Of a DNA stretch of 64,000 nt, positions 12,366 through 18,144 are shown piece by piece. The position numbers and the translations under genes are program-made. Numbering within the stretch: position 1 is the stretch's first letter; every line of letters begins with the position of its first letter. The DNA is from a virus, in IMG/VR virus record IMGVR_UViG_3300025467_000007, positions 1-64,000 of that record. The stretch is one strand, 5' to 3'. The notes beneath the pieces are model-generated. The model saw nothing but the letters and a program-made list of their open reading frames with translations, was not told where the DNA came from and did not search any database.

Positions 12366-12800
12366 ATGAAAGCTGATGAAAATTTATCAAAGATTTTTGA
12401 TGTAGAACCTCTTAAACAGGGTGAAGTTGCAAGCACGGGACAAGAGATTGTCCCAGCTTCAAACAAGATGGAAGAGAACGTGGATTATGACTATGACTCA
12501 GCTCGTAATAATCTACATAAATTATTGAATCAAGGACAAGATGCATTATATCATGCTTTGGAAATAGCCAAGCAATCTGAGCATCCAAGAGCCTTTGAGG
12601 TTGTAGGTAACTTAATGAAACAGTTAGCTGACACTAATGAACAACTGTTAACACTAAGTGAACGTAAGCAAAAACTAGATGCTCCTAAGCAGCAAGATGG
12701 AAATGCATCTGGTAAGCAAGTGACGAATAACAACGCGATATTCGTGGGATCTACTTCAGAACTATCTAAAATGATTAAAAACCTGAATAAAAATGATTAA
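12366..12800 (+). CDS. gp16: Terminase small subunit gp16
   Basis: A 144-residue protein with the gp16 core DYDSARNNLHKLLNQGQDAL and SEHPRAFEVVGNLMKQLADT followed by a short charged tail. Gp16 recognises phage DNA and activates the gp17 packaging motor. Length is close to T4 gp16 (164). Gp17 is not in this window; the next gene is a homing endonuclease whose ATG overlaps the gp16 stop by 8 bases. Confidence 0.85.
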   Translation: MKADENLSKIFDVEPLKQGEVASTGQEIVPASNKMEENVDYDYDSARNNLHKLLNQGQDALYHALEIAKQSEHPRAFEVVGNLMKQLADTNEQLLTLSERKQKLDAPKQQDGNASGKQVTNNNAIFVGSTSELSKMIKNLNKND

Positions 12801-13365
12801 ACCTACATATCTTTATATTAAACATCATACTATAACTGGAATGAATTATTTCGGTAAAACTACACGAAATGATATTGATAAGTATTTAGGATCTGGTAAA
12901 TATTGGATTAATCATATAAACAAGCATGGTAAAGAGCATGTTATAACTATGTGGGTTTCTGAGCCATTTATTGATAAAAGCAAATTAATTAAATATGCTA
13001 AGCTTATATCAGAAGAATTTAATATAGTTAACTCTGATAAATGGGCAAATTTAAGAGAAGAAAATGGAATTGATGGTGCACCTATAGGATACAGTCATTC
13101 AGACGAATCTAGAAAAATAATGTCTGAATCACACAAAGGTATTAGTAATAAAATCAGTGATGAAGCAAAAAAGAGAATGTCAGAAGCACAAAAGAAAAGA
13201 ATTATTACTAAGGAACACAGAGCTAAAATTGGACTTAGTATATCGCAAAACACAAAGGGCAAATTGAAACCTAAAACAATATGTCCAGTATGTGGTGTGA
13301 CAGGAGGAAACAACGTTATGAAACGTTGGCATTTTAATAATTGTAAAAATAATGTAGGAGAATAG
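12793..13365 (+). CDS. GIY-YIG type homing endonuclease with NUMOD3 repeats
   Basis: A 190-residue protein. The N-terminus has a degenerate GIY-YIG fold (YLYIKHHTITGMNYFGKTT, DKYLGSGKYW), then NUMOD3-like DNA-binding repeats (SDESRKIMSESHKG, SDEAKKRMSEAQKK), and a C-terminal CPVCG zinc motif with H and C further on. Such free-standing endonucleases cut intron-less alleles and spread themselves. It lies between gp16 and gp26, starting inside the last codons of gp16, and its base composition is richer in A than its neighbours, in line with acquisition. Confidence 0.8.
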   Translation: MIKPTYLYIKHHTITGMNYFGKTTRNDIDKYLGSGKYWINHINKHGKEHVITMWVSEPFIDKSKLIKYAKLISEEFNIVNSDKWANLREENGIDGAPIGYSHSDESRKIMSESHKGISNKISDEAKKRMSEAQKKRIITKEHRAKIGLSISQNTKGKLKPKTICPVCGVTGGNNVMKRWHFNNCKNNVGE

Positions 13366-13366
13366 T

Positions 13367-14080
13367 ATGGCATTACCAATTAATACCACGCCGGTATATA
13401 CGTTAACGTTACCTTCAACAGGTAAAGATATTAAGTATAGGCCATTTTTAGTAAAAGAAGAGAAAGCATTACTGATCGCTAATCAATCAGAAGACATTAA
13501 GGTCATGGTTGAGTCTCTTAAACAAGTCATCAAGGCTTGTATTAAGGATACAGTAGATGTCAATACATTCTCTACGTTTGACCTTGAATACGTGTTTACA
13601 CAGATTCGAGCAAAGTCTGTAGGTGAGATGGTTGACTTGTATCTTAAATGCGATACATGTGAAGATGAAAAAGCAGTAGCAAAGGTTACTATTGATCTTA
13701 CTACTCTAACTGTTGAAAAAGATCCAAGTCATACAAATAAGATAGGATTATTTAGTGATGTAGGTGTCATCATGAAATATCCTACAGTTGATGTAGTTAA
13801 TAGATTACAAAACATCGATCAAACCGACATGGATGAAGTATTTTCATTAGTGATTGATTGTATAGATTCAATTTATACATCTGACGAGATGTTTTCAACT
13901 AAAGATCAGACAAAAGCAGAATTAATGGAGTTCTTAAACAACCTTACTTCTGATCAGTTTGCAAAGATCCAGGCATTCTTTGAGACTATGCCTAAGTTGC
14001 AACACACTATTGATTATACATGCCCGGTATGTAACAAAGAGCATCATAAAGTATTAGAGGGACTCAACAGTTTTTTTTAA
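13367..14080 (+). CDS. gp26: Baseplate hub assembly protein gp26
   Basis: A 237-residue protein of the T4 gp26 family (208 in T4): YTLTLPSTGKDIKYRPFLVK EEKALLIA at the N-terminus and a C-terminal CxxC (YTCPVCNKEH) ending KVLEGLNSFF. It comes directly after the homing endonuclease and before gp51 and the tape measure. Its final codons run through eight T residues, and the gp51 frame is already open across this point, so a -1 shift would yield a gp26-gp51 fusion (see the slippery site). Confidence 0.85.
   Translation: MALPINTTPVYTLTLPSTGKDIKYRPFLVKEEKALLIANQSEDIKVMVESLKQVIKACIKDTVDVNTFSTFDLEYVFTQIRAKSVGEMVDLYLKCDTCEDEKAVAKVTIDLTTLTVEKDPSHTNKIGLFSDVGVIMKYPTVDVVNRLQNIDQTDMDEVFSLVIDCIDSIYTSDEMFSTKDQTKAELMEFLNNLTSDQFAKIQAFFETMPKLQHTIDYTCPVCNKEHHKVLEGLNSFF
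14071..14077 (+). other. Candidate -1 ribosomal frameshift site T TTT TTT
   Basis: The end of gp26 reads agt ttt ttt taa. The heptamer T TTT TTT is a canonical X XXY YYZ slippery site placed directly before the stop. A -1 slip enters an open frame that reads LINLSHESLHNYYKMNF and continues without a stop through gp51, giving about 297 residues. The gene order chaperone, shifted extension, tape measure copies the G/GT arrangement of many tailed phages. Confidence 0.6.
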
Positions 14081-14118
14081 TTAATCTCTCTCATGAGTCA
14101 TTGCATAATTACTATAAG

Positions 14119-14259
14119 ATGAATTTTGCACTGATGCAGTATCACCATTATGCACTAAGTGATATAGAAAACATGATACCATTTGAGAGAGAAATCTATG
14201 TGGCTATGTTGATTAAGTACTTAGAAGAAGAAAAGAAAAGGATAGAGAGTAGAAGGTAA
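14119..14259 (+). CDS. gp51: Baseplate hub assembly catalyst gp51-like, probably expressed by frameshift from gp26
   Basis: From the first ATG this is a 46-residue protein (MNFALMQYHHYALSDIENM, then IPFEREIYVAMLIKYLEEE). The same frame is open upstream to at least 14077, and the residues before the ATG (SHESLHNYYK) look coding, so the natural product is probably the C-terminal part of a gp26-gp51 fusion. No good ribosome binding site precedes the ATG. It overlaps the tape measure start (TAATG). T4 gp51 is much longer (249 residues), so gp51 naming rests on context and on the short gp51 forms in marine myoviruses. Confidence 0.65.
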   Translation: MNFALMQYHHYALSDIENMIPFEREIYVAMLIKYLEEEKKRIESRR

Positions 14260-15890
14260 TGGCAAAGAAACAAGATCCTAGTATGAACTTATCTTATATA
14301 CTTAAGAAGCAGGAAGAAGAAAAACTTTCTGGCTTAAGTGCTAATGTTGCGTCTCAGTTGACAGAAGCTGGAGTAAATCCTACAGCTACACCGAAAGAAG
14401 CTACTCGACAATCAACTAAAGAAAAGCCAACACCTCAACTTAATATAACTCCAGTATTAACTGAACTAAAATCACTTAACAATAATATGTTAAAAGTAGT
14501 AAAATCCATGGCAGAAAACAATGGATTACTTAAGACTCTTGTTAAGAATTCTAAGGAAGCTAAGTCATCTAAAAATAATCTTACTGAAGATAAACTTGAA
14601 GATCAAAACTTTAAAGACAAGTTAATGGATTTAATAATTGGTATCAAAGCTGGTACTGATAAGATTGAGAAGCCTAAGAAAGGTTTCTTTGATGATTTAG
14701 GTAAATGGGCTGCAGGACTTGCTTTAGCTCTTGGTGCACTTATTGGTTGGATTCAAGCTAAAGTTAAGTTCTTGTCTAGATTTATCCCAGATAACTTATT
14801 AGAATCAGTTAAAAAAAGGTTTGCAAATATTGGTAAGTTCTTTGAAGAACTAATAGCTCCACTTAAAGAAAGATTTGGTAAAGCATTTGGAAAAATAGCA
14901 GCATTCTTTGAACAAACTTTTAGTAAAATTAAGAAGTTACTTAGCTTTGATAAAGAGGCTAGTATTTTTGCAGAACTAGGTAAAGCTTTTAAAGCGTTCA
15001 TATCACCATTTAAAAATGCATTTAGGATCTTAAGAGTCTTAGTATCTGGCCCTATAAAAGAAGTTGAAGGCATATTTAGTGGTATAGCAAAGTTTGTTAA
15101 GACATTTAGCGGAGTTATAGGTAAAGTAGCATCAATAATAAAAATTATTGGAGAACCAATCCTAATCATCATGGCTATCTATGATACGGTAAAAGGTGCA
15201 ATTGAAGGGTTCAAAAAAGAAGGTATAGTTGGTGCAGTTAAAGGTGCATTAAAAGGATTATTCGATGCAACTATTGGAGGGTTCTTAGACTTAATTAAAG
15301 ATATAGGATCTTGGGTACTAGAAAAGATTGGGTTTAAATCAGCTGCTAAGTTTTTAGATTCATTCTCGTTTAAAGATTTATACAGTAAATTCTTGGACTT
15401 AATGTTTGCCCCAGCAAAATGGTTCCAAGATATGCTATTATCTTTATGGAATACTGTTAAGAGTATACAGATAGGACCATTTAGTATATTCGGTAAGAAA
15501 CTTGGTCCATGGAAACCTTTTGCATCTTTAGGTGGAAGTGATACATCGACACCGTCTGATAATACAAGTGCATCACCAACTTCTTCAGAATCATCTGATA
15601 ATACAAGTGCAACACCTACGCCGACACCTGCGACATCAGTAAGTCCAGCATCAAATAGTGTACAATCATCTGATCTAGCTCCATCAAGCAGACAAACAGC
15701 TGATACTGTTTATACAAGATCTGGAGAAAATGCTGGTATAGCACAAGCTTCTCCAGCTTCAGCACCAGTTTCAGTGGTTAATGCACCAACGACAATAACA
15801 AAACAAACATCTAATAACTTGATTAAGCTCCCGGTACGGGATGAAGATACTACTATCCAGCAGTATTATAGATCAAGGTTCGCATATTAA
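14259..15890 (+). CDS. gp29: Tail tape measure protein, gp29-like
   Basis: A 543-residue protein. The N-terminus is polar and probably coiled-coil (LTELKSLNNNMLKVVKSMAE); residues 145-390 contain several hydrophobic helices (WAAGLALALGALIGWI, IIKIIGEPILIIMAIYDTV), and the C-terminus is Ser/Thr/Pro-rich and low in complexity. This is the usual form of a tape measure, and T4 gp29 has 590 residues. It follows the gp26/gp51 pair as tape measures follow tail chaperones and is the last gene before a terminator. Confidence 0.78.
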   Translation: MAKKQDPSMNLSYILKKQEEEKLSGLSANVASQLTEAGVNPTATPKEATRQSTKEKPTPQLNITPVLTELKSLNNNMLKVVKSMAENNGLLKTLVKNSKEAKSSKNNLTEDKLEDQNFKDKLMDLIIGIKAGTDKIEKPKKGFFDDLGKWAAGLALALGALIGWIQAKVKFLSRFIPDNLLESVKKRFANIGKFFEELIAPLKERFGKAFGKIAAFFEQTFSKIKKLLSFDKEASIFAELGKAFKAFISPFKNAFRILRVLVSGPIKEVEGIFSGIAKFVKTFSGVIGKVASIIKIIGEPILIIMAIYDTVKGAIEGFKKEGIVGAVKGALKGLFDATIGGFLDLIKDIGSWVLEKIGFKSAAKFLDSFSFKDLYSKFLDLMFAPAKWFQDMLLSLWNTVKSIQIGPFSIFGKKLGPWKPFASLGGSDTSTPSDNTSASPTSSESSDNTSATPTPTPATSVSPASNSVQSSDLAPSSRQTADTVYTRSGENAGIAQASPASAPVSVVNAPTTITKQTSNNLIKLPVRDEDTTIQQYYRSRFAY

Positions 15891-17466: not shown

Positions 17467-18144
17467 CTAATCTATTGAACCGTCTTCAACTTTAAGTTTT
17501 ATCTTTTTAGCTGGTTTTGGTTGGTCAACGATCTCATTTTGTTTTTCTGCTAACTTTTTAGATTGTTGGTCCACAGCCTCGAACCTCTTCTTAAGTCTTG
17601 GCTTGATGTCTTCTGAATTGAACCATAACTCGATGCCGTTTAGGACCTTCTGGATCTCATCAGCTGATAAGAAACCTTTATATGCATCCTTTAACAGCTT
17701 CTCACATTGGGCGATAGTGAAGTCTGTGTGTGCTTTAACTGTAGGAGTGTTACCGGCCGATCCGAATGATGCTGTGTGGATCATGATGTATGCTGTATCA
17801 TAGACATGGACAGCATGGCAATACATGGCGATAAGAGAGGCAGCAGAGTGACATGCACCCATAAGGAATGCAGTCACTTCTGCCTGAGATGAAAGGATGC
17901 CTGATATGATTGCTCCAGCAGAATCAAGGTTACCACCATTTGAGTTTATGTATAGGTGGATCTTGTCGTTCTCTGATGCATTTACAAGTAAAGAGATAAG
18001 CTCTCTATACTTTCCAGGTTCCTCTATCTCTTGATCTAGGAATACTTCATGTGTTCTATATACAGATTCAATCGTATTGATATGTACATTATTAAGTAAT
18101 CCACTAAATATACTAGGGACGTTTTCACCTGCAAGTTTGTTCAT
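17467..18144 (-). CDS. clpP: ClpP-like serine protease
   Basis: A 225-residue protein with the ClpP/crotonase fold: LYINSNGGNLDSAGAIISG forms the oxyanion region, MGACHSAASLIA carries the nucleophile S100, and YIMIHTASFG the catalytic H123. Length is close to bacterial ClpP (about 200), with a Lys-rich C-terminal extension. No Clp ATPase gene is in the window, so it may use a host unfoldase or act on prohead or host proteins. Ends close to a promoter for gp33; the downstream-coded SleB-like gene lies upstream. Confidence 0.82.
   Translation of the reverse strand: MNKLAGENVPSIFSGLLNNVHINTIESVYRTHEVFLDQEIEEPGKYRELISLLVNASENDKIHLYINSNGGNLDSAGAIISGILSSQAEVTAFLMGACHSAASLIAMYCHAVHVYDTAYIMIHTASFGSAGNTPTVKAHTDFTIAQCEKLLKDAYKGFLSADEIQKVLNGIELWFNSEDIKPRLKKRFEAVDQQSKKLAEKQNEIVDQPKPAKKIKLKVEDGSID

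Follow-up and report, generated by a model that had tools for sequence, protein, structure and literature searches.

Probable Tail Assembly Chaperones from Frameshifted and Separate Genes

In phage lambda, the short tail assembly chaperone gpG and its −1 frameshifted long form gpGT are encoded just 5′ of the tape measure gene, and the slippery site is G_GGA_AAG; the phage studied here is predicted to have the same arrangement, with T_TTT_TTT as its site. For T4-like phages, a 2022 study by Vladimirov, Gautam and Davidson in Virology (566:9-15) reportedly found the frameshift to be conserved in several groups, and the T4 group is said there to use separate genes. Passages of two further papers, both citing Vladimirov et al., describe some T4-like phages as having one gene for the short form and another for the long form (PMC10274946), and report poly-T slippery sites in T4-like TAC-N genes (PMC12846349). 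In T4, gp51 is essential and is absent from the final particle (PMC3004832), and Sullivan et al. noted that roughly the first 200 residues are missing from cyanophage gp51 (PMC3037559). Shine–Dalgarno (SD) stimulators of frameshifting have been found in dnaX and in many IS elements (PMC5009743).

Here we analyze the junction of gp26 and gp51 in a 64,000-nucleotide stretch of DNA from an uncultured phage, hereafter the window. Like the T4-like chaperones of Vladimirov et al., the locus has a gp26-type short form, a gp51-type extension and a poly-T site within TAC-N. As far as the passages cited above go, the core of the frameshifted gp26/gp51 chaperone is already published and the window's phage is an additional example; a conserved SD-like element and noncanonical junctions in the Ackermannviridae may be additions to the published system. 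We consider it very probable that gp26 and gp51 are a single chaperone gene giving two proteins through a −1 slip on T_TTT_TTT, probably aided by the SD-like element. The features of the locus are as follows:

13367–14080, + strand: gp26 homologue, short form of the tail assembly chaperone (TAC-N); PF12322 (T4_baseplate), phrog_150
14056–14062, + strand: SD-like AGAGGGA, candidate dnaX-type 5′ stimulator; its GAGG core (14057–14060) ends 10 nt before the heptamer
14071–14077, + strand: slippery heptamer T_TTT_TTT, in register with the gp26 frame; T_TTT_TTN is kept in relatives
14078–14080, + strand: gp26 stop codon TAA, directly 3′ of the heptamer
14077–14259, + strand: −1 frame extension (gp51 domain, TAC-C), 60 codons plus stop codon TAA (14257–14259); phrog_634
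14259–15890, + strand: tape-measure-like protein, whose ATG overlaps the gp51 stop (TAATG); phrog_1535, E = 2.2e-8

A Conserved Slippery Heptamer near the gp26 Stop Codon

The gp26 ORF closes with GAG GGA CTC AAC AGT TTT TTT TAA, and its run of eight T residues (14071–14078) holds an in-register T_TTT_TTT, a canonical site of the X_XXY_YYZ class. From the T-run onward the −1 frame contains no stop until the TAA at 14257–14259, and its translation, LINLSHESLHNYYKMNFALMQYHHYALSDIENMIPFEREIYVAMLIKYLEEEKKRIESRR, begins L I N L S H E S L H N Y Y K M. The initial annotation had described gp26 as ending agt ttt ttt taa with the −1 frame open through gp51, and both details are confirmed, at 14071–14080 and up to 14259, respectively. 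In-register T_TTT_TTN heptamers occur only four times in the 18,695 codons of 65 window ORFs; at that frequency, about 0.0006 would fall by chance within the final three codons of any one gene.

To assess conservation, gp26 loci were gathered from both viral contigs and isolate phages, 133 in all, and grouped into 102 clusters at 85% protein identity. The initial annotation had proposed looking for conserved slippery heptamers at related junctions, and an in-register T_TTT_TTN was present without exception where gp26 has a terminal Phe-Phe or Phe-Leu pair, as it does in 93 clusters (T_TTT_TTC in 56, T_TTT_TTT in 35 and T_TTT_TTA in 2). Of 221 Phe-Phe/Leu pairs elsewhere in the same genes, only 16 carry T_TTT_TTN (Fisher p = 1.7e-63, a descriptive value since the clusters are mutually related, although synonymous sites are near saturation at this level of divergence, with pS about 0.8). 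At all 93 junctions the first Phe codon is TTT, a codon used at 68% elsewhere in the gene, and the codon preceding it ends in T; the heptamer has been kept beyond amino-acid need. Across relatives the gp26 stop lies zero, one or two codons 3′ of the heptamer; one cluster beyond the 93 (L145) also has T_TTT_TTN, but further from the stop, reading there continuing past the usual stop. No relative in this subfamily was seen to combine a well-initiated gp51 gene with the loss of the T-run, the combination that the initial annotation had named as evidence against a frameshift, and its other refuting outcome, a wrong T-run length, was likewise not observed.

The Two Parts Form One Protein in T4

The gp26 ORF matches Pfam PF12322 (E = 1.4e-65, 221.5 bits against a gathering cutoff of 24.5) and PHROG phrog_150 (E = 9.5e-69). 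The gp51 extension matches phrog_634 ("baseplate hub assembly catalyst"; E = 7.2e-25) and also the end of phrog_150, a profile that T4-type gp51 matches over its full length. T4 gp51 itself covers the whole PF12322 profile (E = 3.9e-52) and its C-terminus matches phrog_634, and the T4-type gp51 profile aligns through the junction with a profile of the gp26+gp51 fusion (hhalign E = 2.7e-16). T4 gp51 is therefore a full-length PF12322 protein plus the gp51 domain, and T4 encodes the short form (gp26) and the long form (gp51) as two genes, homologous PF12322 proteins of which gp51 bears the extra C-terminal domain. Genes 26 and 51 of T4 lie on opposite strands and are separate, as the initial annotation had stated, whereas the window phage would have one frameshifted gene. 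The equivalent site of T4 gp26 reads GAG TTC TTT (G_TTC_TTT) and lacks the heptamer, and the −1 frame closes at once.

Coding Selection Precedes the First ATG of the −1 Frame

In pairwise comparisons over the extension, pN/pS is 0.18 for the −1 frame and 1.24 and 2.26 for the others, and the 0 and +1 frames are closed in 128 of 128 cases. The initial annotation had noticed coding-like residues ahead of the first ATG, and this impression is borne out by a pN/pS of 0.26 in the −1 frame (1.78 and 1.06 in the others) for the codons that precede the window's first ATG; the −1 frame is thus under protein-coding selection directly after the proposed slip site. The first ATG, at 14119, lies 14 codons into the frame and has no SD-like sequence before it, as had been claimed. 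An SD-preceded start codon within the first 25 extension codons was found in only 6 of 98 clusters, compared with 67 of 100 for gp26 starts.

These data bear on whether gp51 could be a small protein in its own right, with translation starting internally or through termination–reinitiation at the end of gp26. Annotators do list gp51 as a separate gene, some relatives, e.g., nt-1 and phiM12, have a stop–start overlap (TAATG or TGATG), and an SD before the end of a gene can aid reinitiation (PMC5009743). We nevertheless consider a separate gp51 very improbable: the codons ahead of the window's SD-less ATG are conserved and under selection, the position of the first in-frame ATG varies among relatives from codon 0 to codon 42 or the ATG is absent, the heptamer is retained beyond what the amino acids need, and T4 holds the same two parts in one protein.

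An SD-like Element at a Fixed Distance from the Heptamer

A frameshift on the heptamer is also suggested by what lies upstream. An SD-like match (GGAGG, GAGG, AAGGA or AAGG) ends 8–10 nt 5′ of the heptamer in 83 of the 93 clusters, and 88 of the 93 have an SD-like match of at least 4 nt within the 22 nt upstream, versus about 24% of control stretches. The element is encoded within a conserved Leu-Glu-Gly, and the Glu codon there is GAG in 58 of 78 cases; for Glu-Gly pairs at other positions the count is only 9 of 49 (p = 5.6e-10). This GAG bias goes beyond conservation of Leu-Glu-Gly and therefore indicates selection at the nucleotide level, making the element a candidate 5′ stimulator. The arrangement resembles that of E. 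coli dnaX, in which an SD-like stimulator likewise lies about 10 nt 5′ of a homopolymeric heptamer. The two systems differ in that dnaX combines A_AAA_AAG with a 3′ stem-loop, whereas no conserved 3′ stem-loop was found in the relatives analyzed here, and in that the dnaX shift shortens the product whereas the gp26–gp51 shift would lengthen it.

Across about 90 loci, the RNA in the 75 nt 3′ of the heptamer is on average more stable than its shuffles (mean z of −1.56 versus −0.54 for a control stretch). Some individual hairpins are strong, as in L001 (L001:4104–4178). RNAalifold detected no consensus pair in 48 aligned downstream sequences and the window's own downstream RNA is unremarkable (z of about −0.1), so we claim no stem-loop. 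An Rfam search of 13800–14400 returned nothing.

Transcriptional slippage on the T8 run, which would alter the number of U residues in the mRNA and so fuse both frames, could draw on the eight T residues of the window and on the slippage known from runs of nine A or T (PMC5009743). In 58 of the 93 relatives, however, the T-run has only six T residues and in five it has seven, lengths at which polymerase slippage is unlikely to be efficient, and the conserved features, the codon register T_TTT_TTN and an SD-like element at a fixed distance, are both ribosomal; we therefore regard polymerase slippage as highly improbable. Homopolymers are error-prone and a wrong T count could disguise a single gene in a single frame, but five contigs with different metagenome identifiers (L005–L009) share the identical junction, so the T count is not an error of a single assembly. 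More than 100 relatives, isolate genomes among them, show this architecture as well and refute the error reading, whose probability we consider negligible.

Junctions That Lack the Canonical Heptamer

An equivalent −1 extension (phrog_9633) is also retained in the Ackermannviridae and in certain Vibrio and Pseudomonas phages, but their junctions read NTT TTC or CTT TTT and lack a canonical heptamer. A slip by a single tRNA-Phe on T_TTC would fit, and reinitiation is possible for those exceptions that contain TAATG. The gp51-like −1 extension is unannotated in several records, including those of Vi01 and phiMAM1; we observed such an extension, with an NTT TTC junction, after position 1504 of Salmonella phage Vi01 (L053) and also in L055, L059 and L042. 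In another gp26 relative (L036:3645–3675), GAT CTT TTT ACG TAA replaces T_TTT_TTN, with the −1 extension intact. A wider scheme, to which we give an even chance, would have the dnaX-like cassette of SD and T_TTT_TTN selected to set the chaperone ratio, with a single-codon slip on T_TTC into the same −1 extension in the Ackermannviridae and gene duplication instead in the T4 lineage.

Proposed Synthesis and Function of the Two Forms

In the window phage, most ribosomes would halt at the TAA at 14078 and release the short form, gp26, of 237 aa. A minority would slip by −1 on T_TTT_TTT, the tRNA-Phe molecules in the P and A sites re-pairing with TTT, and pairing of AGAGGGA, about 10 nt upstream, with 16S rRNA would probably aid the slip. 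We infer this slip, its rate, the role of the SD and the chaperone function. The product of the slip would be a long form of about 297 aa bearing the gp51 domain. If lambda gpG/gpGT is taken as the model, the tape measure protein would be coated by the N-terminal part common to both forms, and tail tube subunits would be recruited by the gp51 part.

The initial annotation had equated the order of chaperone, frameshifted extension and tape measure with the G/GT system conserved in siphoviruses and other phages, and the ORF at 14259–15890 indeed matches tape measure families, the best being phrog_1535 (tail length tape measure protein). The short and C-terminally extended forms are thus predicted to be encoded directly 5′ of the tape measure gene. 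The suggestion that gp26 and gp51 are the tail assembly chaperones is supported, and it agrees with what is already published for T4-like phages with poly-T slippery sites.

If so, the routine "baseplate hub" and "hub assembly catalyst" annotations in cyanophages and other relatives would denote one frameshifted tail assembly chaperone gene, and the starts of gp51 ORFs in databases are probably wrong. The conserved SD-like element makes stimulation of the frameshift directly testable.

Predicted Fold of gp26 and Neighboring Genes

An AlphaFold2 (AF2) model of gp26 (pLDDT 88.6) was compared with 350,542 PDB chains. Two 2OB9 chains, from the HK97 tail assembly chaperone, ranked first, at a weak Foldseek E-value of 0.64 and a VIA Z of 7.7, which lies in the grey zone (rmsd 4.2 over 84 residues, within gp26 residues 1–85). 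The next were 3FGX and 3KLU (YqbN), each weak alone, which we take to be tail-chaperone-like as well. The position of a tail-chaperone family at the top of this ranking is supportive of the proposed function. A sequence search of the PDB with the fusion profile returned nothing beyond chance hits and chains of designed leucine-rich repeats, and a fold search with a T4-type gp51 model gave no usable match.

The neighboring genes in the window are T4-like tail and head genes: gp53, tail tube cap, gp4, gp2, tail tube and small terminase. Directly 5′ of gp26, the ORF at 12793–13365 (+ strand) matches a phage homing endonuclease (phrog_314, E = 4.6e-18; NUMOD3) and is probably an insertion between the small terminase gene and gp26. 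The window also encodes a Clp-protease family ORF at 17467–18144 (− strand; PF00574, E = 9.2e-16).
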